From assembly GCF_963678165.1 (NCBI RefSeq), contig NZ_OY782755.1:434001-498000 (forward strand): DNA of 64,000 nt, in the 5' to 3' direction. A program made the translations under genes and the position numbers. This DNA comes from an uncultured Acetobacteroides sp. (lineage in GTDB: Bacteria > Bacteroidota > Bacteroidia > Bacteroidales > ZOR0009). Under the pieces are notes generated by a model that saw only the letters and a program-made list of their open reading frames with translations, was not told the origin of the DNA and did no database searches. This document shows, piece after piece, positions 14,785-43,506 of the stretch; position 1 is the stretch's first letter; each line of letters opens with the position of its first letter.

Positions 14785-15090
14785 GATTTCACGGCCTGAA
14801 AGTGGCCCTGAAAAAGATTTTCATCGGCTTTCAAGGTGTAAAGTTTATGGAAAATGAAAATTCACCGACTTTACACATGTAAAGTGATCCGAAAGACAAA
14901 AATTACAGACATGACACGTGTAAAGTCAGCGAAAAATGAATTTCGAATGACATGACACATGTAAAGTCGTCCAAAAGACGAAAATTATAGACTTTACACC
15001 TGTAAAGTCTGTGAAAGCTGAGGTGTCATTGACTTTACACCTTGTAAATTCAGTAAAAAGATCTGGCTCCGCAATTTTCACGGCGAGATA
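14785..15090. repeat. 41-base tandem array with palindromic core
   Basis: Units begin at 14785, 14826, 14867, 14908, 14949, 14990 and 15031, exactly 41 bases apart; a degenerate unit may begin near 15072. The core is close to the 20-base palindrome GACTTTACACNTGTAAAGTC, followed by about 21 more variable, AT-rich bases that are themselves related between units. The two outermost units are the most decayed. The array fills much of the 647-base gap 14639-15285 between two plus-strand genes. I see no convincing gene in the rest of this gap. Confidence 0.9.
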
Positions 15091-15285
15091 TCCCTTTTCT
15101 TACGGGCCTTGGGGGGATTCTCTGCTGCACCTAGGAGCCATCGCTTCCGGCAAGAGCCGCTCCACCAAAGAAGCGGCGCCCACGAACTTTTTGAAGCCGT
15201 AGAAGTTTAGAAGATATAGCCCCAGCAGATCAGCGAAGGCGCTGAAGCTGGAGGGACGAGCGACAACCAACCAATCGAAGTCGTA

Positions 15286-15672
15286 ATGAAGAGCCGTAAC
15301 ACTACCTTTTCGCTTCGCAAAAGGGCGCATAGTTTTAGGTACGCCTTTCGGGGGATTGTGGGGTTCATCAGCCTGGAGCATAACGCCTGGATTCATGTGG
15401 CGATGGCCGCCTTGGCGCTTGCGCTGGGGGCTGCGCTCCACATCAGCCAGCAGGAGTGGGCTACGGTGGTTATCCTCATTGCGCTGGTGCTGGCCGCCGA
15501 GGCCTTCAACTCGGCCATCGAGGCGCTGGCCGATCACGCCACCGACACCATTCACCCGCTGATCGGCAAGGCGAAGGACTATGCGGCAGGAGGGGTGCTG
15601 CTGCTGGCCGTGGGGGCGCTTATCGTCGGGTGCATCATCTTTATCCCTAAAATATCGGAGCTATTCTCCTAA
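15286..15672 (+). CDS. dgkA: Diacylglycerol kinase / undecaprenol kinase family
   Basis: Small inner-membrane kinase of 128 residues that phosphorylates undecaprenol (or diacylglycerol), recycling the lipid carrier of cell-wall synthesis. Three membrane segments are seen at about 38-60, 62-80 and 102-122. The family signature EAFNSAIEALAD near residues 72-83 matches the E-x2-NTAIE-x3-D pattern, and an amphipathic N-terminus RKRAHSFRYAFRG precedes it. Only 11 bases separate it from the next gene, so they form an operon. In Gram-negative Bacteroidetes the substrate (lipid A-derived diacylglycerol or undecaprenol) is undecided. Confidence 0.92.
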   Translation: MKSRNTTFSLRKRAHSFRYAFRGIVGFISLEHNAWIHVAMAALALALGAALHISQQEWATVVILIALVLAAEAFNSAIEALADHATDTIHPLIGKAKDYAAGGVLLLAVGALIVGCIIFIPKISELFS

Positions 15673-15683
15673 CACAGGAAATC

Positions 15684-16025
15684 ATGGAAGAAGAATCGGA
15701 CCAGAACTTAGAGCAGAATTTAGACCAGAACCCGGAGCAAGAGCAGGGGCAGAACTCGGAGCCAACCAAGATCGTACGGTTTGCCCGCTTCCTTTTTGTT
15801 TGGATATGCATTGGAATTCCCCTGGGGCTGTACACCCTCACCGTTGGCCCCATGGAGTGGCTAAACCGCTACGCGCACAAAACCGCCATGCCTGCCGAAG
15901 ATGTGGCCTACTACGGGCGGCTTATTGTGCTGGGGTTTGTGGTTGTCTCGTTCCTGGTTGCCTTCCTCATCTGCCGCGTAATCCTGAAGTGCGGGCGCCG
16001 AAGGAATCGGAGAAATAGCTGCTAG
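15684..16025 (+). CDS. Small two-span membrane protein, unknown function
   Basis: 113 residues. The first 30 residues are acidic and rich in Gln, Glu and Asn (short QNLEQNLDQNPEQ-type repeats). Two hydrophobic segments follow at about 36-55 and 79-100, and the tail is basic (CGRRRNRRNSC). I do not recognise a family. It is 11 bases after dgkA and probably co-transcribed, so an envelope role is possible, but nothing in the sequence shows it. Confidence 0.75.
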   Translation: MEEESDQNLEQNLDQNPEQEQGQNSEPTKIVRFARFLFVWICIGIPLGLYTLTVGPMEWLNRYAHKTAMPAEDVAYYGRLIVLGFVVVSFLVAFLICRVILKCGRRRNRRNSC

Positions 16026-16143
16026 GCCTCCTGCTTTGCAGGACGCTGCATTTATCCCTAAATTCCCTAATGGGGATATAGCGGCAGTGGGAGGGGGTCG
16101 GTATGCGCGCGATATTCCTTTGCCGAACGCTGGCACTGCGCAT

Positions 16144-16170
16144 AAAAAAACGCCCCTGCTGAGGGGCGTT
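16144..16170 (-). terminator. Terminator of the lipid A operon
   Basis: AACGCCCC (16149-16156) pairs with GGGGCGTT (16163-16170); on the minus strand it is followed by seven T. It lies 24 bases past the lpxA stop codon. Confidence 0.92.
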
Positions 16171-16193
16171 TCCTTTATATGCTTTTACGACGG

Positions 16194-17000
16194 CTAGATG
16201 TCTAGATCTTCGCTTTTGGCCTTGCCAGCGTAGCCCTTGATGATGCCTCGCTTGGAGTCCTTCACGAAGCTCACGATGTAGTCGCGGAACTCGCTCTGTG
16301 GCACCTCCGCCTCGATGGCCTCCACCGCTTTCGACACGATGTAGCCGCTCTGGTACAGCAGGCGGAAGATATCCTGAATCTGGTGGATCTCCTCGGGGTT
16401 AAACTGGCGGCGGCGCAGCCCAACGGAGTTGATGCCCACGTACGATAGCGGATCGTGGCCAGCCTTTACAAACGGCGGAACATCCTTGCGCACGAGCGAT
16501 CCGCCGGAGATCATCACGTGGCCCCCGATGCGGACAAACTGGTGTACCAGCGAGTGGGCGCTAAGGATGGCAAAATCGTCGATCTCCACCTCGCCAGCCA
16601 GCTGAACTCCGTTGCCTAGGATGATGCTATTGCCCATAATGACGTCGTGCGCCACGTGCGCGTAGGCCATGATAAGGCAGCTGCTTCCCACCACCGTCTT
16701 TCCCTTTGCTGCGGTGCCCCGGTTAACGGTAACGCACTCGCGGATGGTGGTGTTGTCGCCAATTTCAGCCGTTGTTATTTCGCCTCTGAACTTGAGATCT
16801 TGGGGAATCGCCGATATTACGGCGCCAGGAAAAATCCTGCAGTTTTTCCCAATGCGAGCGCCATCCATTACGGTAACGTTCGGGCCAATCCACGTTCCAT
16901 CTCCAATCACCACGTCCTTGCCTATCCAGGCAAACGCGTCGATGGTTACGTCGGCTCCGATCTTCGCATCGGGATGAATGTAAGCCATTGGTTGACTCAT
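16194..17000 (-). CDS. lpxA: UDP-N-acetylglucosamine acyltransferase
   Basis: First step of lipid A synthesis: transfers a 3-hydroxyacyl chain from acyl carrier protein to the 3-OH of UDP-GlcNAc; cytosolic trimer. 268 residues, usual length. The left-handed beta helix is visible as hexapeptide repeats (IGADVTIDAFAWIGKDVVIGD...) over about residues 8-190, with the catalytic His in MAYAHVAHDVIMGN and a helical C-terminus. The substitution determining chain length cannot be read with confidence. It is the last gene of the HD - lpxD - lpxC/fabZ - lpxA operon, 15 bases after its upstream neighbour. Confidence 0.96.
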   Translation of the reverse strand: MSQPMAYIHPDAKIGADVTIDAFAWIGKDVVIGDGTWIGPNVTVMDGARIGKNCRIFPGAVISAIPQDLKFRGEITTAEIGDNTTIRECVTVNRGTAAKGKTVVGSSCLIMAYAHVAHDVIMGNSIILGNGVQLAGEVEIDDFAILSAHSLVHQFVRIGGHVMISGGSLVRKDVPPFVKAGHDPLSYVGINSVGLRRRQFNPEEIHQIQDIFRLLYQSGYIVSKAVEAIEAEVPQSEFRDYIVSFVKDSKRGIIKGYAGKAKSEDLDI

Positions 17001-17015
17001 CTTCTGTTCGTTTTG

Positions 17016-18410
17016 TTATTTTGATTTTACAACTTGAGCGGATAGTTCGCCCTCGGCAACAATGGTGTCTCCAACAAACGCCTGCGCCCACATTACGGCA
17101 ATGCCCCTACGGATGGGCTCCATTAGCTCCATCTTTATGATGATGGTATCGCCCGGAACCACCTTCTTCTTGAACTTCACCTTGTCCACCTTTAGGAAGT
17201 AGGTCGAGTAGTTCTCGGGGTCGGGCACTAGGCCTAGCACCAAAATACCGCCCACCTGCGCCATAGCCTCTATGATGAGTACACCTGGCATAACAGGCTC
17301 GTCGGGGAAGTGCCCCACGAAGAAGGGCTCGTTCATGGTTACATTCTTGATGCCCACCACAACCTCCTTGTCTAGGTGGATGATCTTATCCACCAAAAGG
17401 AAGGGCGGACGGTGCGGAAGCTTCTTCCGAATGCCATTGATGTCCATGACTGGCTCCGCGCAGGGGTTGTAGTGCGGTACCGGAACCTTCATGAACTGGC
17501 GCTTCATGATCTTGCGGAGCACCTTGGCAAATTCGGTGTTGGCGTGGTGCCCTGGGCGCTTGGCAATAAACTTACCCTTTATGCGGTGTCCAACCAGCGC
17601 AAGGTCGCCAATCATGTCGAGCAGCTTGTGGCGGGCGCACTCGTTGGGGAAGCGCAGGTCGAGGTTGTTCAGGATTCCGTCGGGACGGCGATGGACGCTT
17701 GGCTTGCTGAATAGCGTTGCAATTCGGTCCAACTCCTCCTGAGGAACCTCTTTATCGAGGATTACGATGGCATTCTCTAAGTCGCCACCCTTAATCAGGT
17801 TATTTTTGAAGAGGAACTCCAGCTCGTGGAAGAAAACGAAGGTACGGCAGGGGGCAATCTCCTCCTTGAATATCTCCATGGTCTCCATGTTGGCGTACTG
17901 GTTGCCCAGCACCTTCGAGTTGTAGTCGATCATCACGTTCAGGCTGAAGTGGTCGTCGGGGTAAGCTACAATTTCGATGTTGTGCTTCTCGTCTCTCCAA
18001 ACCGTCTTTTCTTTTATTTCGAAGTAGTGGCGCTCTACGTTTTGTACTTGAGTCCCTACCGATTCAATTGCCTGAAGGAAGTACTTGGCGCTACCATCCA
18101 TGATGGGCGTTTCGGGAGCGTTGAGCTGCACAAGCGCATTGTCGATGTCGCAACCCACAATGGCAGCCATAACGTGCTCGATAGTGGAAACCCGTACGCC
18201 ATTCTTCTCGATCGTGGTGCCGCGGGAGGTGTCGGTAACGTAGTCGGCAATGGCCTCAATAACTGGCTTGCCGTCTAGGTCTACCCGTTGAAACTTAATC
18301 CCATGGTTGGCATCGGCAGGAAGGATGGTTAGGGTTACCTGAAGACCCGAGTGCAGGCCTTGCCCGATAAGCGTAACGGCTTCCTTTATCGTTCTTTGCA
18401 TTTCAGACAT
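17016..18410 (-). CDS. lpxC/fabZ: Fused UDP-3-O-acyl-N-acetylglucosamine deacetylase / 3-hydroxyacyl-ACP dehydratase
   Basis: Bifunctional protein of 464 residues, the fusion typical of Bacteroidetes. Residues about 1-305 are LpxC, the zinc deacetylase committing UDP-GlcNAc to lipid A. Zinc ligands are in IEHVMAAI (His) and HKLLDMIGDLALVGHRIKG (His and Asp). Residues about 320-464 are FabZ, the hot-dog dehydratase of fatty-acid elongation, with LPHRPPFLLVDK and the catalytic GHFPDEPVMPGVLIIEAMAQ. Fusion links the branch point between lipid A and fatty-acid synthesis. It is flanked by lpxD and lpxA on the same strand. Confidence 0.97.
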   Translation of the reverse strand: MSEMQRTIKEAVTLIGQGLHSGLQVTLTILPADANHGIKFQRVDLDGKPVIEAIADYVTDTSRGTTIEKNGVRVSTIEHVMAAIVGCDIDNALVQLNAPETPIMDGSAKYFLQAIESVGTQVQNVERHYFEIKEKTVWRDEKHNIEIVAYPDDHFSLNVMIDYNSKVLGNQYANMETMEIFKEEIAPCRTFVFFHELEFLFKNNLIKGGDLENAIVILDKEVPQEELDRIATLFSKPSVHRRPDGILNNLDLRFPNECARHKLLDMIGDLALVGHRIKGKFIAKRPGHHANTEFAKVLRKIMKRQFMKVPVPHYNPCAEPVMDINGIRKKLPHRPPFLLVDKIIHLDKEVVVGIKNVTMNEPFFVGHFPDEPVMPGVLIIEAMAQVGGILVLGLVPDPENYSTYFLKVDKVKFKKKVVPGDTIIIKMELMEPIRRGIAVMWAQAFVGDTIVAEGELSAQVVKSK

Positions 18411-18492
18411 TCTCTTGCTCCTAAAAAATGTGAGTTATCCTCGTTTACGCGCGCATCCCCACAAAGTTTACCTTTGAGGGGATGCGTTGATC

Positions 18493-19533
18493 TTATTTAT
18501 TGGCTTTTAAAGCCGCAATTTCTTTTTTCAGTTCGCTTACCTGCTTCGCTAAGTCGGGTAGATTTTTAAATACTATCGAGCTTTTGTGGTAGCTGCGAAT
18601 GTCAATGGCTGGCGATCCCATTAGTACTTGATCCTCCCCTTTTAGCGAGTTGTTTATCCCGGTTTGGGCGGCAAGCTTAACGCCATTGGCAATGGTGATG
18701 TGGCCCGAAATGCCGACTTGTCCGCCAAACATGCAGTTGGCTCCAACCTTTGTCGATCCTGCAATCCCCGATTGTGCTGCCATAACCGTATTCTCGCCCA
18801 CCTCTACGTTATGCGCAACTTGGATGAGGTTGTCGAGCTTAACTCCCTTGCGGATGATGGTTGAGCCCATGGTAGCGCGGTCGATGCAGGCATTGGCGCC
18901 AATCTCCACGTAGTCCTCAAGAATTACGTTTCCAATCTGAGGAATCTTCTTGTACTCGTTTGCCGCCGAAGGTGCAAATCCAAATCCATCAGCACCAATT
19001 ACCGAGCTGGCATGGATGGTAACGTTGTTGCCTAGCACGCACTCGTGGTAGATCTTTACGCCAGAGTAGATGGTGGCGTTATCGCCTATCGTGGCATTGT
19101 CGCCGATGTATACGTGAGGGTAAATTTTCGCGTTCTTTCCGATGGTTACGTTTTCGCCAATGTAGGCAAATGGGCCAACATATGCATCTTCGCAAATCTT
19201 AGCGCTAGGCTCTATGCAGGCTTGGGTGCTGACGCCTACCTTCTGCATCTTGGCATTCTGGTATAGCTCCAACAGCGAGGCAAATGCGGCGTAGGCATCT
19301 GGCACGCGGATTAGGGTACACGAAACAGGCTGCTCTAGTTGAAGATCTTTGTTGACAAGAACTATAGTTGCGTTGGTTGTATACAGGTAATGGTTGTATT
19401 TGGGGTTAGCCAAAAAGGCTAAAGTACCTGGCGTTGCTTCCTCAATCTTTGCGACGGTAGTTACCGTCGCATCTGCGTCGCCCTCAATCTCGCCATTCAA
19501 AAATGCTGCAATTATTTGAGCTTTAAACTCCAT
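18493..19533 (-). CDS. lpxD: UDP-3-O-acylglucosamine N-acyltransferase
   Basis: Third enzyme of lipid A synthesis, adding the amide-linked hydroxyacyl chain; cytosolic. 346 residues. The N-terminal uridine-binding domain (about 1-100) is followed by left-handed beta-helix hexapeptide repeats (about 108-310) such as [21 protein letters not shown], with the catalytic His in [16 protein letters not shown]-terminal helix ([22 protein letters not shown]) closes the trimer. A possible internal -7 box TAGTTTTG (19564-19557) lies between it and the upstream HD gene. Downstream is lpxC/fabZ. Confidence 0.95.
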
Positions 19534-19568
19534 GAGACGCTATTTAGAAATTTGCACAAAACTAAGAA

Positions 19569-20822
19569 TTAAAATTTAAACTCATAATTTGTTTTCGGGT
19601 AGCACAGGAAATATTTAATTGTCTCACCTCCAAATGCTGCGCTGTTTAAGACATCAGAGGCAACCTCTATACCTTCGAGGTTGCCGTTTTTATCGAGTAT
19701 TTTTATCGACTGGCTTTTTGGGCTATAGGCCTTGTTGCTTATCTCGTGGGTAAGAACAAAGTATTCGGATACCATCTTGCTGTCAGCGTTACCTAGCAGC
19801 TCCATTAGTACCTCTCTTTTTTGGGCGACTATATCGTCGGAAAAGGGAACCTTGTTGAGCTCGATCTTAAGCAGGTTGCGGCTGTTAAGCATGGCACAAA
19901 GATTCTTAAGGATAAAGTCGTCCGAGTGCTCCCATTCCTTAAGGCAAACCGATATGTCGGAGTCGTCGAGTTGTACGAAGTAGGCGATAAGCTCCTCCGC
20001 ATTGCCGAGGTTTACCCTACTGGTATTCTTCGGATCGAGAAAGAAGCGGAGCGTGGGCGTGATGTACAGCGGCTTGTTTTCCGCTATGCACTCCTTGGCG
20101 CGCTTAAATATCTGGATGAGCAGCTGCTCGGCGGCAATCACCGTTTTGTGGAGGTACACCTGCCAGTACATCAGGCGGCGGGCAATAAGGAACTTCTCGA
20201 TGGAGTAGATGCCTTTTCCTTCCACCACCAGCTCGTCGTTTACCACCTCTAGCATCTTGATGATGCGGTCGAGTCCAATTGCCCCCTCTACTACGCCGGT
20301 AAAGAAGCTGTCGCGGCGCAGGTAGTCGAGCCTATCCACATCCAGCTGGCTCGATATTAGCTGGTGCAGGAAGTGCTTTGGGTATTCGTCCTTAAATATC
20401 TGGATTGATAGCAATAGCCTACCGTCGAATTCATGGTTTAGCTGGTTCATCATCAGGAGCGATAAATCCTCGTGGCTTACGCCCTCGGCGATGCTGAACT
20501 CCAGCGCGTGCGAGAACGGTCCGTGCCCAATATCGTGTAGCAGGATGGCGCACATGGTAGCCTCCTCCTCTTCGGTGGTTATCTCGTGCCCCTTGCTGCG
20601 GAGCGAGTCGATGGCCTCCTTCATCAGGTGCATGGCGCCCAGCGCATGCTGGAAGCGGGTGTGCATGGCACCAGGGTAAACCAGGTAGGTTAGCCCCAGC
20701 TGCTTTACCCCACGTAGCCGCTGGAAGTAGCGATGCTCAACGAGCTCGGCTGCTAGGTTGTTGGGGATATCAATAAACCCGTGAACGGGATCGTTTATGA
20801 TTTTCTTTACGCTCTTGCTCAT
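19569..20822 (-). CDS. HD-domain phosphohydrolase (dNTPase/SAMHD1-like)
   Basis: Metal-dependent nucleotide phosphohydrolase family protein. I choose the start at 20822 (MSKSVKKIINDPVHGFIDIP), giving 417 residues, as related proteins begin with this INDPVHG block; the frame from 20978 adds 52 residues. The HD site is complete: HTRFQHALGAM (His), LLHDIGHGPFSH (His-Asp) and a later Asp in QLDVDRLDYLRRD. This gene is commonly the first of the Bacteroidetes lpx operon, though it is not a lipid A enzyme. Whether it makes deoxynucleosides or acts on another nucleotide is not known here. Confidence 0.88.
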   Translation of the reverse strand: MSKSVKKIINDPVHGFIDIPNNLAAELVEHRYFQRLRGVKQLGLTYLVYPGAMHTRFQHALGAMHLMKEAIDSLRSKGHEITTEEEEATMCAILLHDIGHGPFSHALEFSIAEGVSHEDLSLLMMNQLNHEFDGRLLLSIQIFKDEYPKHFLHQLISSQLDVDRLDYLRRDSFFTGVVEGAIGLDRIIKMLEVVNDELVVEGKGIYSIEKFLIARRLMYWQVYLHKTVIAAEQLLIQIFKRAKECIAENKPLYITPTLRFFLDPKNTSRVNLGNAEELIAYFVQLDDSDISVCLKEWEHSDDFILKNLCAMLNSRNLLKIELNKVPFSDDIVAQKREVLMELLGNADSKMVSEYFVLTHEISNKAYSPKSQSIKILDKNGNLEGIEVASDVLNSAAFGGETIKYFLCYPKTNYEFKF

Positions 20823-21014
20823 AGCCTGTAATGCTGTGATGGATAGTCGGCAAAGAACGGAAAGATATAGCAGAAAAGGGAGCATTCGCTTCAAAATCTT
20901 CACGAAAGGGCTCTGTGGAGGGTTGTATTCCGACGAGTGTGAGTTAAAAAATGTTACTGCAATAACATTGTAAAGCATTTAAAAACAGTATATAGTATCG
21001 AATGGTGAGGGTTG

Positions 21015-21049
21015 TTTGTTTAAATAGCGTTCAATTTTTGTTACTTTTA
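21015..21049 (+). promoter_or_regulatory. Possible pgk promoter
   Basis: TTTG at 21015-21018, a 23-base spacer, and TACTTTTA at 21042-21049 (last base differs from the TAnnTTTG consensus). It leaves a leader of about 47 bases before the start codon. Confidence 0.4.
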
Positions 21050-21103
21050 CATTTCGATATTCAAGACAGTTCTTAGTGTCAATCATACTAATATCATTTC
21101 ATA

Positions 21104-22366: not shown

Positions 22367-22395
22367 GACATCGTATAAACCGATATAAAAAGAAA

Positions 22396-22423
22396 AAAGG
22401 TCGACATCACGTCGGCCTTTTTT
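22396..22423 (+). terminator. Terminator after pgk
   Basis: AAAGGTCGAC (22396-22405) pairs with GTCGGCCTTT (22411-22420, one G.T), followed by T residues to 22423. Confidence 0.9.
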
Positions 22424-22727
22424 CACAAACCACTCAAAAAACCATTAACGTTTTAACATTAATACTTACTAAAATAACTATTAATTGGCCTGTGCTGCAA
22501 CTTGCACATACGTAATACGCTTACCCCCCCTCAAAAGTTCTCTTTCTTAGTTCGATTTAAGCAATAACATTAGTCGTTAAAGCTGCTAAGCTTACCCTCA
22601 GAAGGTTACAGCATATCTTAAGCTAACAACGCCGTTGTATGCCTCAATGTTTTTTTGACTTGGACATGCCCCTTCGAGTCGGGTTGCCTGCTCGCATCGT
22701 TGTTGGATTTCTTTTTCTCAAAATTGA

Positions 22728-23122: not shown

Positions 23123-23224
23123 ATACTTCAATTGGAGAGCAGTGGAAGTAGCCGTACCCTGGCTACTTTGGTGGGGGAAGCTTACCGGCGTTGCTACAAT
23201 ATCTTTGTACAGCAACGCACGATG

Positions 23225-23707: not shown

Positions 23708-23711
23708 AGCG

Positions 23712-23741: not shown

Positions 23742-23869
23742 CGAGAGGGCTCCTCGCCGCTCTAAATGTGAAATACGGGTGCCGTCCCGCGGGTAGCCCA
23801 ACCTCAGCCGCAGCCAACCATGCCTGCTGACATTTTGTCGCACGCCCACCGACCGAAAAAATCGAAAAT

Positions 23870-23913
23870 CCGAACGGAGTCCGAACGCAGTCCGAACACA
23901 CCCCGAACGCACA
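23870..23913. repeat. Four units of an 11-base tandem repeat
   Basis: CCGAAC begins at 23870, 23881, 23892 and 23903, each 11 bases apart, with variable five-base tails. It lies in the 537-base gap 23708-24244 between divergent rnhA and the GH51 gene. The rest of this gap holds the rnhA promoter and, at 24166-24173, a TACCTTTG that could be the GH51 -7 box; I see no gene in it. Confidence 0.7.
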
Positions 23914-28549: not shown

Positions 28550-29191
28550 ATGAAAACCAATATCGCCAGCCTCCGAAAGGAGTATTCGCTAAGTACCCTA
28601 GATCAGTCGAATGTTTTACCCAGTCCTATACAGCAGTTCGAGATTTGGCTGCAGGAGGCTATCAAGGCCGAACTCCCCGAGCCCAACGCCATGACGCTGG
28701 CCACCTCCACCTTCGAGGGGAAGCCCTCGGCGCGGATGGTGCTGCTGAAGGCCGTTGGCGAGCAGGGATTCTCCTTCTTTACCAGCTACGAGAGCCGAAA
28801 GGCACGGCAAATCCTGCAAAATCCCTACGGGGCGCTGGTATTCTACTGGGCCAAGCTGGAGCGGCAGGTGCGCATCGAGGGGCGGATTGTGCGGGCAGCC
28901 GATGCGGAGTCCGACGCGTACTTCCAATCCCGCCCCGTGGGCAGTAAGCTGGGCGCTTGGGCCTCGCCCCAGAGCCAGGTGGTGCCCAGCCGCAAGTACC
29001 TGGAGGAGCTGGTGGCCGACTTCAGGGAGGAGTTTGCCGAAAAGGCTATCGTGCGGCCCCCCAACTGGGGCGGCTACAGGCTGGAGCCCGTGCTGGTGGA
29101 GTTTTGGCAGGGGCGAAGGAGTCGGCTGCACGACCGGATTCAGTACCGCCTCGAAAATGGGGCTTGGGTTATCGAGCGGCTCGCCCCATGA
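28550..29191 (+). CDS. pdxH: Pyridoxamine 5'-phosphate oxidase
   Basis: FMN enzyme that oxidises pyridoxine or pyridoxamine 5'-phosphate to pyridoxal 5'-phosphate; cytosolic dimer. 213 residues, full length. Motifs: EPNAMTLATSTFEGKPSARMVLLKA (FMN contacts), FFTSYESRKARQILQNP, ALVFYWAKLERQVRIEGRI, FQSRPVGSKLGAWASPQSQ, and the C-terminal signature VEFWQGRRSRLHDRIQYRLENGAWVIERLAP. The gene is markedly GC-rich next to the AT-rich island upstream. It is followed by the 21-base repeat array. Confidence 0.97.
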   Translation: MKTNIASLRKEYSLSTLDQSNVLPSPIQQFEIWLQEAIKAELPEPNAMTLATSTFEGKPSARMVLLKAVGEQGFSFFTSYESRKARQILQNPYGALVFYWAKLERQVRIEGRIVRAADAESDAYFQSRPVGSKLGAWASPQSQVVPSRKYLEELVADFREEFAEKAIVRPPNWGGYRLEPVLVEFWQGRRSRLHDRIQYRLENGAWVIERLAP

Positions 29192-29240
29192 TGGCGGCGG
29201 AGCGGTCTGTCGGAGTATCGCTGGGGTTTCGGAACCCGAG

Positions 29241-29563
29241 GTTTAGGTCAAACAGCGCTCCGTTTAGGTTCGCCGACGAAGTCTTTCGCCATTTTACCGC
29301 ATCGTTTAGGTTCCGAGGCCCGCCGTTTAGGTCCCGAAATGGTTTGTTTAGGTTTGGGACTGTTCCGTTTGGGTTCCGAACCTAAAAGCATCGTCGATTG
29401 ACCTAAACGGACCGTCGATGAACCTAAACGGATCGTCGTTTGACCTAAACGGACCGTCGATGAACCTAAACGGATCGTCGTTTGACCTAAACGAACCGTC
29501 GATGAACCTAAACGCCGGGGTTCCGAACGTATTCGTTTAGGTCCTGAACGTATTCGTTTAGGT
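29241..29563. repeat. 21-base tandem array with orientation blocks
   Basis: The octamer GTTTAGGT starts at 29241, 29262, 29304, 29325, 29346 and (as GTTTGGGT) 29367. Its reverse complement ACCTAAAC (first copy altered) starts at 29380, 29401, 29422, 29443, 29464, 29485 and 29506. The forward octamer returns at 29535 and 29556. Spacing inside each block is exactly 21 bases, with one unit missing at 29283. The array lies between pdxH and the convergent glutamine synthetase gene. Frames through it stay open because 21 is a multiple of three; I do not call them genes. Confidence 0.92.
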
Positions 29564-29635
29564 TCCGGACCTAATAGGAGGGCTGTACAGGGGGGGAGGC
29601 GGGGCAAAGGATCCCTCGCGGTCTCCCCATAAAGC

Positions 29636-29666
29636 AAAAAAAAAGCGGCCCTCCCGGGGCGCTTTT
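29636..29666. terminator. Bidirectional terminator between pdxH and glutamine synthetase
   Basis: AAAAGCG (29641-29647) pairs with CGCTTTT (29660-29666) around a GC-rich centre, with an A run on the left and T-rich sequence on the right, so it can serve both strands. Confidence 0.7.
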
Positions 29667-29771
29667 CTATTTTACACCTTATATCTTAACTTTTGAGTCT
29701 TTTTATTCAAGAATTCAAAGTGTCATTTTCATAGGTTAAGTTTTACTCGGTGTAATGAAGAGAGCAACTAA

Positions 29772-33854: not shown

Positions 33855-34013
33855 ACCCCTGCCGATGCTGAGGCAAACATCATCAATCTTGTAACGAACA
33901 TCACCGATGTTGAAGTGAACATCATCGATGTTGAGGCGAACAACGGCAATGTTGGAACGAACATCATCGATGTTGAGGCGAACGCCATCAATGTTGAAAC
34001 GAACAATCAACCC
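33855..34013. repeat. 21-base tandem array centred on ATCGAT-like dyads
   Basis: Units start at 33876, 33897, 33918, 33939, 33960, 33981 and 34002, exactly 21 bases apart, with a decayed unit at 33855 and a truncated last unit. The commonest form is AACATCATCGATGTTGAGGC plus one base, which contains AACATC and its complement GATGTT three bases apart. The array lies between der and the convergent GH20 gene, after the der terminator and before the GH20 terminator. Seven-residue repeats appear in frames across it; I do not call them genes. Confidence 0.93.
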
Positions 34014-36320: not shown

Positions 36321-36579
36321 CGGGTTGCGGTTTGTGTTTAGAGGCTGCAAGGTGCAGCAGGGCAAATGTAGCTTTTTTGAGGGGCTTGGTTGATGCCGTG
36401 GCGCTAATTCTTTACGAGGTTATCTCGCAATCCCACCAACTCTATGCAAGTGGTTTCCCAACCCTTCCCCCAATCCCATTGCAGCCAATCTGCGACAAGA
36501 CATCGATTACCACCCAGAAATGTTTGCTACCGCCGATGCTCTTTCTATATTTGTACTCCTTAACATTAACAGCTAACCT

Positions 36580-38181
36580 ATGGTTTCGAAAAGAAAATTC
36601 ACCATACCGAATAACTTCGTTATCGTCTTTTGGATTATTGCCATCTGCGCCCTGCTCACCTGGTTCCTGCCAGGGGGCGAGTACGTAAAGGCGGCCAATG
36701 GAACGGTTACCTTTAACCAAATCGACAACGTGCCGCAAACCTACCAGCTCTTTACCTCCTTCTTTAAGGGGTTCGAGAAGGGTGCGGGTATCATCATATT
36801 TATTCTTGTTGTGGGCGGCGCCTTCTGGGTGGTTAACTCCAACGGCTCCATCGACGTGGGCATCTACTCCTTCCTCAACCGATCGAAAGGGTGGGAGCGC
36901 TTCTGGCTGGTACGCAAGCTGGGGGTGAACAACGTCATCATGGTAAGCATCATGATCGTCTTTAGCCTCTTTGGGGCGGTGTTCGGCATGAGCGAGGAGA
37001 CCATCGCCTTTGCCGTGGTGATTATCCCGCTGGCCATATCGATGGGGTACGACTCGCTGGTGGGCCTAGGGCTGGTGTACGTGGCTGCCCACACCGGCTT
37101 TGCCGGGGCGATGCTCAACCCCTTTACCATCGGCATTGCACAGGAACTCTCGGGTATTCCGCTCTTCTCGGGCATTGAGTATAGGTTCATCTGCTGGATA
37201 ATCCTTAACGTTGCCCTTATCATCTTCGTGCTCCGCTACGCCCATCGGGTGAAGAAGAATCCGAAGATATCGCCCGTATACCAAGAGGATAAGTTTTGGC
37301 GTGACCGTTTCAGCGAGGAGAAGTCGCACGTGGAGCATACCACGCCCAAATCGGCCTGGTTGGCCTATGGGCTTAGCCTTGCCGCGTTGGTTGCCTTCTC
37401 GGTGGCGTACCCTACCACCTCTCTGGTAATCGGCAAGTCCACGCTGGCGCCGATGCCCATCATGCCGGTAACAATGGCACTCTACGCGCTGCTCTGCTGG
37501 AGAAGCCTGCGCAAGTCGGTTCACTACTTCATTCTGCAGCTGCTGGGCTTCACCATCCTCTACCTTATTGTTGGGGTGATGGGCTACGGCTGGGGTATCG
37601 ATAAGATTGCCGGGCTCTTCTTCGCGCTTGGGCTGTTGAGCGGCTTGGCCATCGGCTACAAGGCCAACGAAATTGTGAAGCACTTTATGGATGGCGCCAA
37701 GGACTTCATGTCGGCGGCCATCATCGTAGGGTTTGCCGGGGGGATTATCGTAATTCTTCAGGACGGCAAGGTGGTAGATACCATCCTGCACGGTCTCTCG
37801 TCGACGCTTGGTGCCTACGGAAAGATTGCCGCTACTGAAACCATCTACGGCATCATTACCCTTATCAACATGATTATCCCATCGGGTAGTGCCAAGGCTG
37901 CCCTCACCATTCCTATATTTGCTCCCTTCTCCGACATTATCGGTATCTCGCGCCAAACAACGGTGATGGCGTTTCAGCTGGGTGGCGGTTTTACCGAGAT
38001 GATTACCCCAATTTCTGGTGTCCTTATTGGCGTGCTAGGCGTTGCCAAGGTTCCTTACGCCAAGTGGATTAAATGGGTTATTCCCTATATCATCATCCTG
38101 ATCATTATCGGTGCCCTGCTGCTCGTTCCTACCGTTACGATGAACCTTAGCGGATTCGAAATGGTTCCTGCGGCACGGTAG
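36580..38181 (+). CDS. DcuC/YfcC-family carrier protein
   Basis: Inner-membrane transporter of 533 residues with about 12 hydrophobic segments. The N-terminus (FVIVFWIIAICALLTWFLPGGEY) and the block ETIAFAVVIIPLAISMGYDSL, followed by AGAMLNPFTIGIAQELSGIPLFSG, are typical of the YfcC branch of the C4-dicarboxylate anaerobic carrier superfamily. A second half repeats the plan (IVGFAGGIIVILQDGKVVD...IPSGSAKAALTIPIFAPFSDIIGISRQ). Members are predicted to move dicarboxylates, amino acids or short peptides; the substrate here is unknown. It stands alone, divergent from the GH20 gene. Confidence 0.85.
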   Translation: MVSKRKFTIPNNFVIVFWIIAICALLTWFLPGGEYVKAANGTVTFNQIDNVPQTYQLFTSFFKGFEKGAGIIIFILVVGGAFWVVNSNGSIDVGIYSFLNRSKGWERFWLVRKLGVNNVIMVSIMIVFSLFGAVFGMSEETIAFAVVIIPLAISMGYDSLVGLGLVYVAAHTGFAGAMLNPFTIGIAQELSGIPLFSGIEYRFICWIILNVALIIFVLRYAHRVKKNPKISPVYQEDKFWRDRFSEEKSHVEHTTPKSAWLAYGLSLAALVAFSVAYPTTSLVIGKSTLAPMPIMPVTMALYALLCWRSLRKSVHYFILQLLGFTILYLIVGVMGYGWGIDKIAGLFFALGLLSGLAIGYKANEIVKHFMDGAKDFMSAAIIVGFAGGIIVILQDGKVVDTILHGLSSTLGAYGKIAATETIYGIITLINMIIPSGSAKAALTIPIFAPFSDIIGISRQTTVMAFQLGGGFTEMITPISGVLIGVLGVAKVPYAKWIKWVIPYIIILIIIGALLLVPTVTMNLSGFEMVPAAR

Positions 38182-38334
38182 ATATACAATTATTAATCGC
38201 GTATCTACGACGGCATTTACAGTAATTATGCGCAGCTGACATTTTGTTGGTTGCGCTTTTTTTCTGATGGTTAAAAAATGTATATCTTTCCTCGCCTTTT
38301 TTACTTATTACAAACAGATTAAATCTAACTTGAA

Positions 38335-39000
38335 ATGGAAATTGGAGAAATTAGAAAGGCTATTGGGGAATGGTCCAAAGCCAGAACATCGTCAGATGAT
38401 GTTTTAACCTACCTAAAGCAGGGAACCTGTTTTAAGATCGAGAAGTCGAACTACAATCTTTGGAAGACGAAGTCTCCAAAAGAGCTGCATGTCTACCTCG
38501 GTGTTTTTAACGGTCAGTTGCAGTTTGTTCTTATCGACAGCGAATCGGATAAAGATCCAGCGGTCAACATCGGCTCTATTGTGGTGCAAGATTATTACCC
38601 AGGCCTAAACGTGCAGGATGCTGGCCTTATCGACCATGCAACCGATGGTAGTATAAAGGTGGTAGATGCGCTAAAGCGGGTGATGAAGTGGACCATGTTT
38701 ATGGAGTCGTGGGTTAAGGATTGCGTTAAGTCAGATGCTGGTGTCTTTCAGGCTTTCGTTATTCCGTTTAGCGACCTATCTTCGCAATTCGAGGCCGCTG
38801 GCAGCCACGAAACCCTTGTGGTATTTGGCCTAAATGGCAAAAATGCCGACCTAATGCTTTGGGGAATGCCCTCCAATGCTGGCGGTAGCGGGGTACGGGC
38901 AATGGCATCTGCCATTGACGATGGCGATGTTGGCTATCCTGTCGAGGATTTATCGACGCCTTGCCCTCCGTTTCATAACAGCGGTCTAGGCCTTTTGTAA
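38335..39000 (+). CDS. Unknown protein heading a signalling operon
   Basis: 221 residues, soluble, no signal peptide. N-terminal half has alternating strands and acidic loops (LHVYLGVFNGQLQFVLIDSESDKDPAVNIGSIVVQDYY); a helical stretch (VVDALKRVMKWTMFMESWVKDCVK) follows, then more strands and a Gly/Pro-rich tail (DLSTPCPPFHNSGLGLL). I do not recognise the family. The gene is 25 bases upstream of a multi-span membrane protein gene and then a histidine kinase and response regulator. It may be a ligand, substrate or target of that system; this is inference from position only. Confidence 0.75.
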   Translation: MEIGEIRKAIGEWSKARTSSDDVLTYLKQGTCFKIEKSNYNLWKTKSPKELHVYLGVFNGQLQFVLIDSESDKDPAVNIGSIVVQDYYPGLNVQDAGLIDHATDGSIKVVDALKRVMKWTMFMESWVKDCVKSDAGVFQAFVIPFSDLSSQFEAAGSHETLVVFGLNGKNADLMLWGMPSNAGGSGVRAMASAIDDGDVGYPVEDLSTPCPPFHNSGLGLL

Positions 39001-39025
39001 TGACATAACCATAAAGTAAAACAGC

Positions 39026-39694
39026 ATGGATCAGAATCAGTTTTTGACACTTATATCGTTGCTTGCACCTATAACCCTTGTGTTCGGAATAATAGTGGGC
39101 TTCTATAATTTCAAGCGTTTGGATGTGAGTATTCGGTTTTTGTTCTTCTACTTGGTGCTGTGTCTTGCTGTCGATTTGCTTTACCGATATTTTGGGTATT
39201 ACTCCCACCTCAAGTACAACCTGTTTATTATACCCATCTTTGCCTTTTTTGAGTTTGCTATATTCTCTGGGTTATACTACAAGCATATACTTAAAAGTAG
39301 GAGTAACACCTTTATTTTATTTGTTGCAGCAGCTCTTCTTTGCATATTTATAGAGTTGCTATTTGTTAATAGGCTGCTACACCAAAAGTCTTTTCAGTCG
39401 TACGGTAAGGTTATTGGCGATGCCGCTATTGTTTTCTACTGCCTCTTGTACTACTGGAAACTATTCAATGGCAGTATTCCAATCGTAACGGAGCATCGCT
39501 ACTTAAATGTTGCTGTACTTATCTACTTTTCTATAAACCTAATTCTATTTCTTCCCATAAATTTCCTAGTTAATGCGTCTATAAGCATTGTTTTTCTGTT
39601 TTGGGTGTTAAATTTGGTGTCTGTAATTCTCTTTTACCTTGTTTTAATCTACTTGATATGGCGGAATGGCAAGACCCGCGAATGTTTGCTGTAG
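39026..39694 (+). CDS. Multi-span membrane protein beside a histidine kinase
   Basis: 222 residues with about seven hydrophobic segments (roughly 6-28, 36-56, 65-86, 94-112, 127-145, 160-182, 190-215) and very short loops. No enzymatic motif. The last 37 bases overlap the start of the kinase gene. The kinase has only one membrane segment and no sensor domain, so this protein may be its separate membrane sensor. That is an inference; the family is not known to me. Confidence 0.8.
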   Translation: MDQNQFLTLISLLAPITLVFGIIVGFYNFKRLDVSIRFLFFYLVLCLAVDLLYRYFGYYSHLKYNLFIIPIFAFFEFAIFSGLYYKHILKSRSNTFILFVAAALLCIFIELLFVNRLLHQKSFQSYGKVIGDAAIVFYCLLYYWKLFNGSIPIVTEHRYLNVAVLIYFSINLILFLPINFLVNASISIVFLFWVLNLVSVILFYLVLIYLIWRNGKTRECLL

Positions 39695-40419
39695 GACTTT
39701 TTGTTGTGTTACTTTTTGTTGCTGTTTTAATCACCAGCATGGTTTTGCTTACCAGAAAGTACATTAAGCGAATTATTCATGAGCAGGATAAGTTTACACA
39801 AGCAAAGCTGGAACACCAGAAATCGTTGCTCTGGAATAGCGTATTGGTTCAGGAAAAGGAGCGCGACCGTATTGCATCCGATCTTCACGACGAGCTGATC
39901 TCGAAACTAACCGTATTAACCTACGCCCTGCAAACCAACAACGAGAAGGTTAAGCCCGTAGAGCTGCTGGGCGATTCCATTAAAATCGCTCGAAGAATTA
40001 CGCACGACCTTCGTCCACCTATGCTCGAAGAAACCACGATGGAGGAACTTGTGGAAGATTTTATCCTCCCTTTGAAGAATGCCTATGCCATCAACTGTTT
40101 TTTTAGCCATCAACAGCATCAGGCACTTAAAACGGATGTCAAGTTGCAGCTTTTCCGTGTTATTCAGGAAGTGGTTAACAACATACTGAAGCACGCTCAT
40201 GCCTCTCAAATAGACATTTTCTTGAGGGTGACAAATACGTTTGTTGCTCTTGTTATTCGCGATAATGGCGTCGGTTTCGACGTTGCGGAAAAGGCAAAGG
40301 GACTTGGGCTAAAGAACATCGAGTTTCGCGCGCAGCTGCTAAATGCGCGAAGCCGCTTTAAGTCGGAGCCTAACAATGGTACTACTTTTCAGCTGCTTTT
40401 GAACAATAGAGTTTGGTAG
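39658..40419 (+). CDS. NarL-type sensor histidine kinase with one membrane segment
   Basis: Autophosphorylating kinase of the HisKA_3 class. The start at 39658 (MAEWQDPRMFAVGLFVVLLF) gives 253 residues; the frame from 39601 would use TTG and lengthen the overlap. One membrane segment (about 10-32) leads into a short coiled linker and the phosphoacceptor His77 in RIASDLHDELISKL. The ATPase domain has N box NILKHAHAS, G1 DNGVGFD and G2 GLGLKNI. No periplasmic sensor is present. The partner regulator starts 2 bases after the stop codon. Confidence 0.92.
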   Translation: MAEWQDPRMFAVGLFVVLLFVAVLITSMVLLTRKYIKRIIHEQDKFTQAKLEHQKSLLWNSVLVQEKERDRIASDLHDELISKLTVLTYALQTNNEKVKPVELLGDSIKIARRITHDLRPPMLEETTMEELVEDFILPLKNAYAINCFFSHQQHQALKTDVKLQLFRVIQEVVNNILKHAHASQIDIFLRVTNTFVALVIRDNGVGFDVAEKAKGLGLKNIEFRAQLLNARSRFKSEPNNGTTFQLLLNNRVW

Positions 40420-40420
40420 A

Positions 40421-41116
40421 ATGGAAGAACAGGATTCATCAATAAGAATTGGAATAGTTGACGACGAAGCATTAATTGTTATGCTTTTGTCCGACTTCTT
40501 CGCGAAGCATGAGCGAATTTCCGTAGAGGTAACCGCTACAGGTGGGCAGCAAATCATTGATGCGTTTGGGGCTGCCCAAAGCATCCCCGAGATACTGCTG
40601 CTAGATCTCCAGATGGGCGAGATGAACGGAATTGATACAGCAACCGTTCTTAAGCAGAGCTATCCCGATTTAAAAATTATCGTTGTCTCTTCGCACTACA
40701 AGAAGTCGTTTATGGGCTACATGCTTAAGCTTGGGGTAAACGCTTTCCTTCCTAAAGGCATAGCGCCACTGCTGCTTGCCGAAGCAATAGAGGAGGTGCA
40801 CGCCAAGGGCTTCTACTTTATGGGCGAGCAGATCGAGGTAATGAGGAATCAAATAGCTGCTAACGTTCCTGCTCCAGCCCTCAAAACCGAGGAGGAACTT
40901 TCGGAGAGGGAGGTGGAGGTACTAAGGCTCCTCTGCATGCAGTATACCGCCCCACAGATAGCCGAAAAACTCTTCATTGCCAAGCGAACCGTAGATTTTC
41001 ATAAAACGAACCTACTGGAAAAAACCTCGTCAAAGAATATTGCAGGGTTGGTTATCTATGCCATTCAGAAAAGGCTTATAGATATCGACGATTGCTTCTT
41101 TACGCTTACGGAATAG
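40421..41116 (+). CDS. LuxR/NarL-type response regulator
   Basis: DNA-binding regulator of 231 residues paired with the preceding kinase. Receiver domain (about 8-125): acidic pocket VDDEA, phosphoacceptor Asp62 in LLLDLQMGEMNG, and Lys in FLPKG. Output domain (about 155-220) is a LuxR helix-turn-helix: LSEREVEVLRLLCMQYTAPQIAEKLFIAKRTVDFHKTNLLEKT. The stop and start codons with the kinase are almost contiguous, so the two are made together. Targets are unknown; the PixA-like gene 190 bases downstream is the nearest candidate. Confidence 0.94.
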   Translation: MEEQDSSIRIGIVDDEALIVMLLSDFFAKHERISVEVTATGGQQIIDAFGAAQSIPEILLLDLQMGEMNGIDTATVLKQSYPDLKIIVVSSHYKKSFMGYMLKLGVNAFLPKGIAPLLLAEAIEEVHAKGFYFMGEQIEVMRNQIAANVPAPALKTEEELSEREVEVLRLLCMQYTAPQIAEKLFIAKRTVDFHKTNLLEKTSSKNIAGLVIYAIQKRLIDIDDCFFTLTE

Positions 41117-41307
41117 CATCCTCTGTACCTGTATTCTCTTCATCGAAGCATCCTTCGTTTTTATCCTACCCCGTATTTGTACCAGTTTTGTCAAAACTAG
41201 TATTTCCTACAGTAGATTTAATCCCTATTCTGATCATATTTGCATCGAAGTTCTACCGCCAATAGCGCTTCAACGGTAAAGGAGATTGTTATTAGAAGTA
41301 GACCAAT

Positions 41308-41697
41308 ATGAGTGCAGTTGATGTTTTAATCGTGATTGACACTGATGGTGCAGCCTCTAGTGGAAATCTTAAGGATAATGTTTCGCTGGTTGAAACAGCA
41401 GAGGGGACAGCCTCGTGGAATAGGCGCTGCTGCGATCTGATAACCTGCTGCAAGGCTGGGCAGACGATTAAGTGGAAGGCAGTACCTAAATCGCCGGAGA
41501 GCGCTGTCGAGATCTTAGAGTTCAAGGGGCAGATGGTGCAGGGTGCTTGTAGGCCTATCCAGAAGAATGCTCTCTCGGGAATTTGGGAGGGGCAGGTGAG
41601 TTCATCCTCAAAGGGAAGGTACCAGTATACGGTGGAGCTTGTTTTTGATGGGATTCGGATGACCTTTGATCCGTTCCTTTTGGTAAATAGAGATTAG
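41308..41697 (+). CDS. PixA/AidA-family protein
   Basis: 129 residues. The opening VDVLIVIDTDGAASSGNLKDNVSLVET and the ending MTFDPFLLVNRD match the inclusion-body protein family (PixA of Xenorhabdus, AidA of Ralstonia and Burkholderia), which I know from those two patterns. In those organisms the proteins are abundant, regulated by cell density or phase variation, and of unclear biochemical role. Here it follows a kinase-regulator pair on the same strand. It has an unusual Cys-Cys pair twice (NRRCCDLITCCKAG). Cytosolic; no signal peptide. Confidence 0.8.
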   Translation: MSAVDVLIVIDTDGAASSGNLKDNVSLVETAEGTASWNRRCCDLITCCKAGQTIKWKAVPKSPESAVEILEFKGQMVQGACRPIQKNALSGIWEGQVSSSSKGRYQYTVELVFDGIRMTFDPFLLVNRD

Positions 41698-41855
41698 TCA
41701 GGATCGAGAATATCTTTATAACGAATAGTATCGAAAAATATATATAATTAGGGCAGTGTTTATAGAGAGGGGGTGTCTTCGGACATTCCCTTTTTTGTGG
41801 CCCATGCCCAAGAATATCTCCCATTGTGCTACTTTTATGCCAAATTGTTGCCGAT

Positions 41856-43184
41856 ATGAAGAAGCTGCTATCTGCCCTTATGCTTGTTTTGCCGATCTGT
41901 GGTTTTGCTGAACTTGACACCACGCTCACCCGCAAGGCCGAGATCGTGAAGAAGGGCTGGAACCTTGGCCCTATCCCCGTTATCGCCTTCGACTCCGACC
42001 TGGGGTTCGAGTACGGCGCGGTGCTCAACTTCTTCAACTTTGGCGACGGCAGCAGCTACCCCGACTACCGCCACTCGATCTACACCGAGGCTTCGCGTTA
42101 CACCAAGGGGTCGGGGCAGTACCGCATCATCTACGACAGCAAGTACGTGCTGCCAGGTATTCGGCTGATGGCCGACCTGCAGTACCTGCCCACGCTGGCG
42201 GCCGAGTTCTACGGCTTTAACGGCGCCGAGAGCCGCTACCATAAGTCGTGGACCGATCCCGATAGCAGGGACTACCGCTCGGAGCTCTTCTACAAGATGA
42301 ACAAGGACGTGCTGCGGGCAGGCGTCGACCTGCAGGGGCGCTTCGGCAGCCCGAAGCTGGGATGGTTGCTGGGCACCTCGTACCAGCGCTACGCGGTGGG
42401 GCCGCTCCGGAGCAGCAAGCTGAGCGCCGAGCCCAGCACCTACGGCGAGTGGGATGTGCTTTACGATAGGATGGTGCGCTGGGGCGTCATCAGCGAGGGC
42501 GAGAGCCGGGGGGGCGACCACCTCACCCTTAAGGGCGCCCTAATTTACGACACGCGCGACAACGAGCCCAACCCCATGCGCGGTATCTGGGCCGATGCGC
42601 TCGTCTACTACGTGTCGCCCAGCCTAGCGGGAGGCACCAGCGGCCACGCCAAGCTGGCGCTCACCCTGCGCAAGTACGTTACGCTTATCCCCAACGACCT
42701 CTCGTTTGCCTTTAGGGCGATGACCCAGAACGTGGTGGCCGGCCGATGCCCCTTCTACCTGCTGCCGCAGATTGTGACGGTATCGCCCCGCCGCTCGGCG
42801 TTCGAGGGGCTGGGGGGGGCCTACTCGTTGAGGGGAATCCTCCGAAACCGTATCATGGCCGATGGCTTTGCGCTGGCCAACGCCGAGCTGCGCTACAAGT
42901 TTTGGCGGATGCACTTGCTCCGCCAGAACCTCTACTGGGCCATCACCGCCTTTACCGATGCGGGGATGGTTACCCAGAAGACTTCGCTCGACCTCTCGGG
43001 CGTACCCCAGTCGGAGTACGACAGCTACTTCCGCAGCACCGCGCAGCGCCCGCACTTCACCTTCGGGATGGGCGGCAAGCTGGTGATGAACCAGAACTTC
43101 GTCATCTCGGGCGACCTGGGCAAGGCCGCCAGCAGCGACGATGGCTCGTGGGGCATGTACATCGGGGTGAATTTTTTGTTTTAG
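41856..43184 (+). CDS. Outer-membrane beta-barrel of the Omp85/surface antigen type
   Basis: The start at 41856 (MKKLLSALMLVLPICGFAEL) gives 442 residues with a signal peptide. The rest is a beta-barrel: alternating aromatic strands, IYDTRDNEPNPMRGIWADALVYY, FEGLGGAYSLRGILRNRIMADGFALANAELRYKFW, and a final strand ending in Phe (MYIGVNFLF), which is the BAM signal. The RG-F/Y-like GGAYSLRGI resembles the Omp85 core loop. POTRA domains are absent, so it is a barrel-only member, as in patatin-associated or Bacteroidetes-specific forms. Transported substrate unknown. It is followed by the 41-base array. Confidence 0.82.
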   Translation: MKKLLSALMLVLPICGFAELDTTLTRKAEIVKKGWNLGPIPVIAFDSDLGFEYGAVLNFFNFGDGSSYPDYRHSIYTEASRYTKGSGQYRIIYDSKYVLPGIRLMADLQYLPTLAAEFYGFNGAESRYHKSWTDPDSRDYRSELFYKMNKDVLRAGVDLQGRFGSPKLGWLLGTSYQRYAVGPLRSSKLSAEPSTYGEWDVLYDRMVRWGVISEGESRGGDHLTLKGALIYDTRDNEPNPMRGIWADALVYYVSPSLAGGTSGHAKLALTLRKYVTLIPNDLSFAFRAMTQNVVAGRCPFYLLPQIVTVSPRRSAFEGLGGAYSLRGILRNRIMADGFALANAELRYKFWRMHLLRQNLYWAITAFTDAGMVTQKTSLDLSGVPQSEYDSYFRSTAQRPHFTFGMGGKLVMNQNFVISGDLGKAASSDDGSWGMYIGVNFLF

Positions 43185-43240
43185 ATTCAAGACACAAGAC
43201 GCAAGGCGCAAGAAATCGGGTAAATGCTGCCTACTGAGCA

Positions 43241-43506
43241 GATAGGCCTGCGCAAAAATGTTTAAAGCTACCGGCTGAACCGATAGGCTTCCGCAAAAAT
43301 GTTTAGGGTTGCCGGCTGCGCCGATAGGCTTCCGCAAAAATGTTTAAGGCTGCCGGCTGCGCCGATAGGCTTGCGCAAAAATGTTTAGGGCTACCGGCTG
43401 CGCCGATAGGCTTGCGCAAAAATGTTTAAGGCTGCCTACTGAGTAAATAGGCTTCCACAGAAATGATTGGGGCTGCCTACTGGGTAGATGAACCTTCGCG
43501 GAAATG
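43241..43506. repeat. 41-base tandem array next to ttcA
   Basis: The block GATAGGC and its variants begins at 43241, 43282, 43323, 43364, 43405, 43446 and 43487, exactly 41 bases apart. Each unit also carries GCAAAAATGTTTA and GCTGCCGGCTGCGCC-like parts. The middle units are almost identical and the ends have diverged. The array lies between the barrel gene and the convergent ttcA and runs right up to the ttcA stop codon (43507). Its sequence has nothing in common with the 41-base array at 14785. Confidence 0.95.

Follow-up and report, generated by a model that had tools for sequence, protein, structure and literature searches.

Intergenic tandem arrays of unrelated sequence in an uncultured Acetobacteroides sp. 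were found to follow one physical ruler, a module of two helical turns of DNA. Five arrays were studied in the window, the whole stretch of 64,000 nucleotides that was analysed (G000:C1:434001-498000), and the survey was extended to sampled DNA of the same genome (G000; 4.30 Mb, one contig; 1.144 Mb sampled) and of two sister species of the genus, G001 (0.244 Mb) and G002 (0.660 Mb), the genus being read in samples rather than as whole genomes. There is good support in this genus for a constraint on the distance between repeat units: that distance seems to be preserved even as the letters change.

Arrays were collected with Tandem Repeats Finder at a score of at least 100, and the base period was taken from autocorrelation. 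Those lying mostly inside called genes (nine in G000, one in G001, and six in G002) were excluded from the period counts, and the threshold leaves out small classes, such as an 11-base array of the window (score 58). Periods of 20-22 or 40-44 bases accounted for 65 of 73 non-coding arrays in G000, 7 of 9 in G001, and 30 of 35 in G002; the window, which had been picked for its arrays, contributes four of the 65. Within this class, the observed base periods were 21, 22, 41, 42, and 43, with a single 40 among the 30 of G002, and no base period of 24-39 or 45-61 occurred among the 117 non-coding arrays of the three genomes at this score. The remaining 15 arrays have periods of 82-256, apart from one of 14 and one of 8. 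Scores of 80-99 added few arrays, including weaker ones (81-91) with periods of 32, 35, and 15. The original prediction held that unrelated arrays share periods near whole numbers of helical turns. A common period class was confirmed genome-wide, the histogram of periods being far from flat despite the few weak arrays at 15, 32, and 35, but the broader wording of whole turns has to be narrowed to the two-turn class, as arrays at 31-32 or 52-53 are missing at a score of at least 100.

The lags between units gave the same picture. In 69 arrays of G000, unit-to-unit lags were mostly 42 (56%) and 41 (19%), followed by 21 (8.5%), 43 (5%), 63 (4%), and 22 (2.6%). After masking of arrays (score 50), the intergenic DNA of G000 retained peaks at lags 42, 21, 63, 105, and 84, at 1.75-2.9 times the median, with lags 31, 32, 52, and 53 flat (0.86-1.15), and lags 42 and 21 ranked as the top two in the masked intergenic DNA of both G001 and G002. 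A masked control of 80 Bacteroidales loci, all taken from the neighbourhood of one gene, der, had no peak at 42 (1.24), and lags 21 and 22 were somewhat raised (1.77 and 1.67). The comb of lags thus defines the ruler as a two-turn module, usually doubled; a whole number of turns is not in itself sufficient. Outside the window, array density was 56.5 per Mb in G000, 45.5 in G002, and 28.7 in G001, which by extrapolation corresponds to about 240, 180, and 130 arrays per genome, respectively. The longest among the arrays listed, of 1.77 kb, has a period of 87 bases, or about eight turns (L148:6070-7835, equal to G000:C1:2946070-2947835).

Compared in both orientations, 40 of 64 units had no relative in the sample at a score of 15, a score that was reached by 18 of 2016 real unit pairs and by 1 of 2016 shuffled pairs. 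The families of arrays 1, 2, 3, and 4 of the window, the only four counted genome-wide, occupy 2, 3, 2, and 3 loci, respectively. In the array-2 family the right tail, as well as the repeats, is common to the three loci, and the family therefore spread as an element. Arrays come and go between species: among 83 orthologous spacers, five held arrays in both G000 and G002, four in G000 only, two in G002 only, and 72 in neither. One of the five shared arrays is a 255-base repeat and one of those restricted to G002 has a period of 8, leaving four shared spacers and one G002-only spacer in the two-turn class. The units in the four shared spacers have diverged and the step has been kept, with periods assigned by program of 42 with 21, 42 with 42, and 22 with 22 in three of them; in the fourth, the program gave 22 and 106, and the period by eye is 22 in both species. 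Among the four G002 sites at which no array was detected, one shows autocorrelation peaks at lags 21, 42, 63, 84, 105, and 126 (z 4.1-7.9), with neighbouring lags 20, 22, 41, 43, 62, and 64 all at z <=1.9. In this degenerate array, the register outlives the sequence.

Small gaps between adjacent units proved to be rare. The number of small gaps per mismatch was 0.096 in G000 (65 arrays), 0.061 in G002 (30 arrays), and 0.014 in G001 (7 arrays), compared to 0.240 in 50 orthologous array-free spacers, a 2.5- to 17-fold difference; 17 control arrays gave 0.069. Because array detection favours gap-free arrays, decay was simulated with the same filter, newborn 42-base arrays being decayed to about the real identity before detection. 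Among the arrays detected, neutral decay at the measured rate of insertions and deletions (indels) left 1 of 57, 0 of 49, and 0 of 36 gap-free, a quarter of that rate left 10, 12, and 6 of 60, and decay without indels left 57, 57, and 33 of 60, whereas 30 of the 64 real 42-base arrays are without any gap. The effective indel rate is therefore reduced, but not nil. When concerted neutral drift from one 42-base ancestor was simulated, a period of 41-43 persisted in 13 of 54, 10 of 57, and 11 of 59 of the arrays detected; with the indel rate cut to one eighth of the measured value, it persisted in 22 of 59, 14 of 59, and 21 of 60. Drift from a common ancestor does not account for the data, and periods set by chance do not either. 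The earlier suggestion that spacing is held while sequence decays is thus borne out by the gap depletion, the simulations, and the degenerate G002 array, and simple slippage with chance periods, offered at the time as the alternative, is rejected.

Within the window, Tandem Repeats Finder and autocorrelation agreed on the periods of all five arrays (none assigned to a strand), which are real and have the periods first ascribed to them. Array 1 (14836..15050) has a 41-base period with 82 as a higher order (lag 82 z 10.7, lag 41 z 10.0; top of 200 shuffles 3.9), and GTAAAGT alternates in it with ACTTTAC/ACATGAC at +11/+30. The arrays are present where they had been placed, but the repeat cores of array 1 cover 14838-15050, a shorter span than the 14785-15090 originally claimed. 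It sits between two plus-strand gene calls, of which the right-hand one is weak. Array 3 (33863..34006) has a 21-base period and a unit near AACATCATCGATGTTGAAGCG (lag 42 z 11.1, lag 21 z 10.1; top of 200 shuffles 4.1); its family has one further locus in G000, and a related but diverged 21/42-base array lies 3′ of der in G002. Array 4 (43226..43506), with a 41-base period (lag 41 z 20.6; top of 200 shuffles 5.3), belongs to a family with two further loci, and G002 carries at this site a 42-base unit in two copies, different from the unit of array 4 but, by eye, sharing a short sequence part with it. The small array (23869..23911) consists of about four copies at an 11-base period (lag 11 z 6.6; top of 200 shuffles 3.4) and is the sole period-11 row in the window's list. 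A partial array (51563..51720, no strand), recognized by eye and lacking an autocorrelation signal, comprises about 1.5 units of the 42-base family of L126:8106-8309; the G002 counterpart of this site is a full 42-base array of unrelated sequence. An Rfam scan of the window returned one tRNA and nothing else.

Array 2 (29241..29576) forms a 21-base lattice with 42 as a higher order (lag 21 z 14.9; top of 200 shuffles 4.0), built from GTTTAGGT/ACCTAAAC with orientation flips. Within each run the GTTTAGGT/ACCTAAAC core steps by 21, once by 42, and the GTTTAGGT copies at 29241 and 29535, which span the inverted run, lie 294 bases, or 14 x 21, apart. This distance is no independent proof of a register held across the inverted run, because an inversion between units could itself preserve it. 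The array is carried by a stretch (29184..29630, no strand) that is missing from both sister species and bears CCCCAT at both edges (29184-29189 and 29625-29630), which, as read by eye, is a possible target duplication. In G002 and G001 the site is empty, with the stop codon joined directly to the conserved terminator. This intrinsic terminator (29636-29675), between pdxH-like and glutamine-synthetase genes, is conserved in the three species despite the ~430 bases gained alongside it in the window.

The placement of arrays relative to genes was surveyed with a simple gene caller of our own, which makes the orientation counts approximate. Among spacers of at least 50 bp, two-turn arrays were present in 31 of 177 convergent and 62 of 877 other spacers (odds ratio 2.8, Fisher p 4e-5); divergent spacers had arrays in 19 of 201 cases, and in G001 alone no array was present in 19 convergent spacers. 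The proposed location between convergent genes holds for three of the four large arrays of the window (arrays 2, 3, and 4) and as a genome-wide excess, but convergent spacers house one third of the arrays and two thirds lie elsewhere. The excess may merely reflect spacers that tolerate insertions. In G000 and G002, a terminator-like hairpin separates the stop codon from the array on 40 of the 104 sides, and those arrays may therefore lie outside transcripts.

Dyad symmetry was found in 42 of 90 units at p<0.05 and in 21 of 90 at p<0.01 (26 of 64 in an earlier count). Column variability was correlated at a distance of 21 in 30 arrays, with a value reached by none of 500 permutations. Conservation in 38 zero-gap arrays followed a 10.5-bp (p/4) rhythm (z 4.4), which stems from the dyad arrays (z 5.1 in 21); such a rhythm is expected of half-sites on one helix face, and stem-loop geometry also could yield it. 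Compensatory double changes in 20 dyad arrays stood at the chance level (8, compared to 7.5 expected, with 155 one-sided changes), which makes hairpins less likely as the target of selection. A permutation test on 30 arrays detected no mod-3 pattern in their variation (p 0.23); it is the valid test here, since the chi-square value (p 1.5e-5) is inflated by repeated columns. Predicted curvature, computed with a wedge table, had a median of 0.568 in G000 arrays versus 0.343 in other spacers. This elevation mostly follows from phase. The excess over composition had a mean rank of 0.639 before and 0.591 after control for the 21-base sub-period, which had contributed part of it.

The closest known elements are the 23- and 41-nt minisatellites of Porphyromonas gingivalis, a member of the same order. 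PMC4596501 describes BrickBuilt (23-nt) and MITEPgRS/MITE464 (41-nt; MITE, miniature inverted-repeat transposable element) as intergenic tandem repeats without spacers. The two families have about 10-20 copies, with IS5-type ends, predicted stem loops, and leader and tail segments. Further 41-, 23-, and 22-nt repeats of strain W83, unlocated, are cited there as well, and the portion consulted does not tie these periods to helical turns. The arrays of the genus resemble them as contiguous intergenic tandem repeats, and 41-base arrays were found here outside called genes, but no base period of 23 occurred in the counts of G000, G001, or G002, most sampled arrays are mutually unrelated, and the four checked families have two to three loci, so that the shared feature is the period. 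Of the near-matches to the IS5-type terminal inverted repeat GAGACC-TTGCA, 0 of 12 (G000) and 0 of 8 (G002) lay within 400 bp of an array; a right tail, as a possible counterpart of the tail segments, was seen at three loci in the array-2 family, the sole family examined for it.

Repetitive extragenic palindromes (REPs) and bacterial interspersed mosaic elements (BIMEs), known from enterobacteria and others, are described in PMC3733652 and PMC6379681 as palindromic intergenic repeats mostly between unidirectional and convergent genes, with BIME-2 binding gyrase; the former defines tagged REPs, and the latter reports gyrase sites with a 10.75-bp G+C rhythm and cleavage in BIME-2. In contrast, the arrays studied here are contiguous rows at a fixed two-turn step, with no high-copy family among the four checked, and REP tags were not enriched in their units (GTAG or CGTC; 25 of 102 units versus 27.6 in shuffles, and 15 of 102 versus 25.1). 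The G+C rhythm of about 10.75 bp, next to the cleavage site, is a property of the strong gyrase sites, for which the power of A/T steps at the helical period here gave no support (rank 0.456). Matches to the REP-associated Y1 transposase were found in G000 and G002 and none in the G001 draft, which has arrays; transposition by such an enzyme (REP-associated tyrosine transposase, RAYT) was therefore rejected as a requirement. A direct repeat of 255-256 bases adjoins the Y1 match in both genomes (L142:11065-11548, equal to G000:C1:1151065-1151548, and L209:17851-18361, equal to G002:C1:357851-358361) and looks like the transposase's own conserved flanking repeat. Arrays of the CRISPR type differ in that the whole period repeats here, without unique spacers. 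Plasmid iterons and partition sites contain rows of about 20-22-bp repeats that are bound side by side, but the present arrays are many, chromosomal, and unrelated in sequence. A literature search at title and abstract level found no paper that relates bacterial arrays of unrelated sequence to a shared period of two turns.

Beyond the genus, 17 of 32 arrays in the 80 control loci fell at 21-23 or 43 bases (at 22 in 12 cases), with mostly different units, and the 22-base arrays were mostly in Bacteroidaceae, Bacteroides, or Prevotellaceae records. Short 22-base arrays, several of them palindromic, lie near der in control loci such as L034, L056, L066, and L069, and units of the TCACACTAG type are common to L066, L069, and L085. 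In 480 kb sampled from a genome of another family (G031), 16 arrays were found. Period 42 occurred four times, periods 14 and 8 twice each, and periods 41, 21, 63, 23, 24, 25, 46, and 102 once each. At a score of 80, no arrays were found in 74.6 kb of G035, 80 kb of G008, or 25 kb of G024; a single array was found in 80 kb of G010 (period 105) and in 40 kb of G009 (period 15, coding). The habit is therefore patchy in the order, and less strict beyond the genus.

These features could be explained if the arrays served at the DNA level as platforms, made of two-turn modules of ~21 bp (22 bp in certain arrays) that are often doubled to 42. Conserved columns at i and i+21, and every 10.5 bp in dyad arrays, would then face one side of the helix, on which a protein, probably a dimer assembling side by side, would dock every two turns. 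Such a protein would read phase and local shape more than sequence, and selection would keep the spacing. New arrays would appear and be dispersed as low-copy elements, with turnover through duplication of whole units, and a row in gene-end spacers, where arrays are most frequent, could serve as a nucleoid anchor or a supercoil barrier. A nucleoid or topology protein at the arrays, as first proposed, is plausible. As a whole explanation, two-turn platforms for a phase-reading protein are put forward tentatively, with a probability judged to be a little short of even.

Several observations weigh against these platforms. The indel yardstick comes from one species pair, and the G001 figure rests on two gaps. 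Gaps per mismatch were higher in 41-base (0.132), 43-base (0.136), and 44-base (0.109) arrays than in 42-base arrays (0.062), and reached 0.40 in the single 40-base array; with a mean identity of 0.86-0.93, the simulated concerted arrays also were more uniform than the majority of real arrays. As for the unit, 48 of 90 lack a significant dyad, the 10.5-bp conservation signal is missing in 17 non-dyad arrays (z 0.1), and a weaker p/6 rhythm (z 2.3) runs through the whole set of zero-gap arrays. Curvature beyond dinucleotide composition is slight (mean rank 0.591 +- 0.030), and A/T-step power at 10.5 bp has no excess over unit shuffles (rank 0.456). The periods of G031 are mixed, with no comb in its masked DNA. 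No docking protein was identified, and an expansion of HU-type proteins was rejected, with ordinary copy numbers of 3, 2, and 3 in the three genomes.

Another source of the ruler could be the birth of the arrays, if an enzyme or recombination process duplicated DNA in two-turn steps, for example in a synaptic or wrapped complex, and left arrays that are functionless afterwards. The sharp period classes across unrelated sequences, the presence or absence of arrays at orthologous sites, and the two to three loci of the four checked families speak for such an origin, which nevertheless is considered rather unlikely as the full account: indels would be expected at the background rate after birth, whereas real arrays gather far fewer, and the degenerate G002 array holds its register at lags up to 126. 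Neutral minisatellites within MITE-like elements of the BrickBuilt or MITEPgRS kind, with an inherited period, concerted drift, and a convergent excess that reflects insertion tolerance, would account for the right tail of the array-2 family at three loci, for its empty site in two sisters with a possible target duplication, and for the 23- and 41-nt repeats reported in P. gingivalis. However, the period becomes scattered in simulations of concerted drift even when the indel rate is one eighth of that measured, BrickBuilt-type ends are absent within 400 bp of the arrays, and the G001 draft has arrays without a Y1 match, so these minisatellites are an improbable complete explanation. Either process may be how arrays arise, yet both leave the missing indels unexplained.

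Selection on palindromes, as RNA hairpins or cruciforms in gene-end spacers that act as terminators or RNA stabilizers, would agree with the dyad-symmetric units, and stems differ by eye between arrays of one family (array 3, L117, L153, and L155) while the loop stays. The chance-level compensatory changes, the half of the units without a dyad, the arrays in divergent spacers, the terminators that already precede some of the arrays, and a 21-base step that hairpins do not need make this quite improbable. Coding repeats of 7- or 14-residue units are suggested by the divisibility of 21 and 42 by three and by the rarity of indels, but the lack of a mod-3 pattern, the occurrence of periods 41, 43, and 22, and the location of the counted arrays outside called genes leave them hardly any probability; they were rejected for the set, and a single array could still be coding.

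In its widest form, the proposal of two-turn platforms would give Bacteroidales a sequence-blind DNA scaffold, with an extrapolated 130-240 platforms per genome in this genus, each a repeat row of whatever sequence kept in exact two-turn register, and read by a protein through helical phase instead of bases; this is possible but doubtful. That relatives use the same or a neighbouring step as part of such a scaffold (22 at loci of Bacteroidaceae and Prevotellaceae, 41-42 in G031 along with other steps, and 23 and 41 as reported for Porphyromonas) is, taken jointly, likewise open to considerable doubt. Slippage is usually taken to set repeat length by accident; here, one physical ruler governs dozens of arrays of unrelated sequence, and these tolerate indels far less than substitutions, so that helical phase itself seems to be under natural selection. 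If true, the two-turn ruler would suggest why Porphyromonas minisatellites have periods of 22-23 and 41. The phase constraint also makes possible a direct test for a two-turn-dependent protein and for its part in chromosome organization at gene ends.

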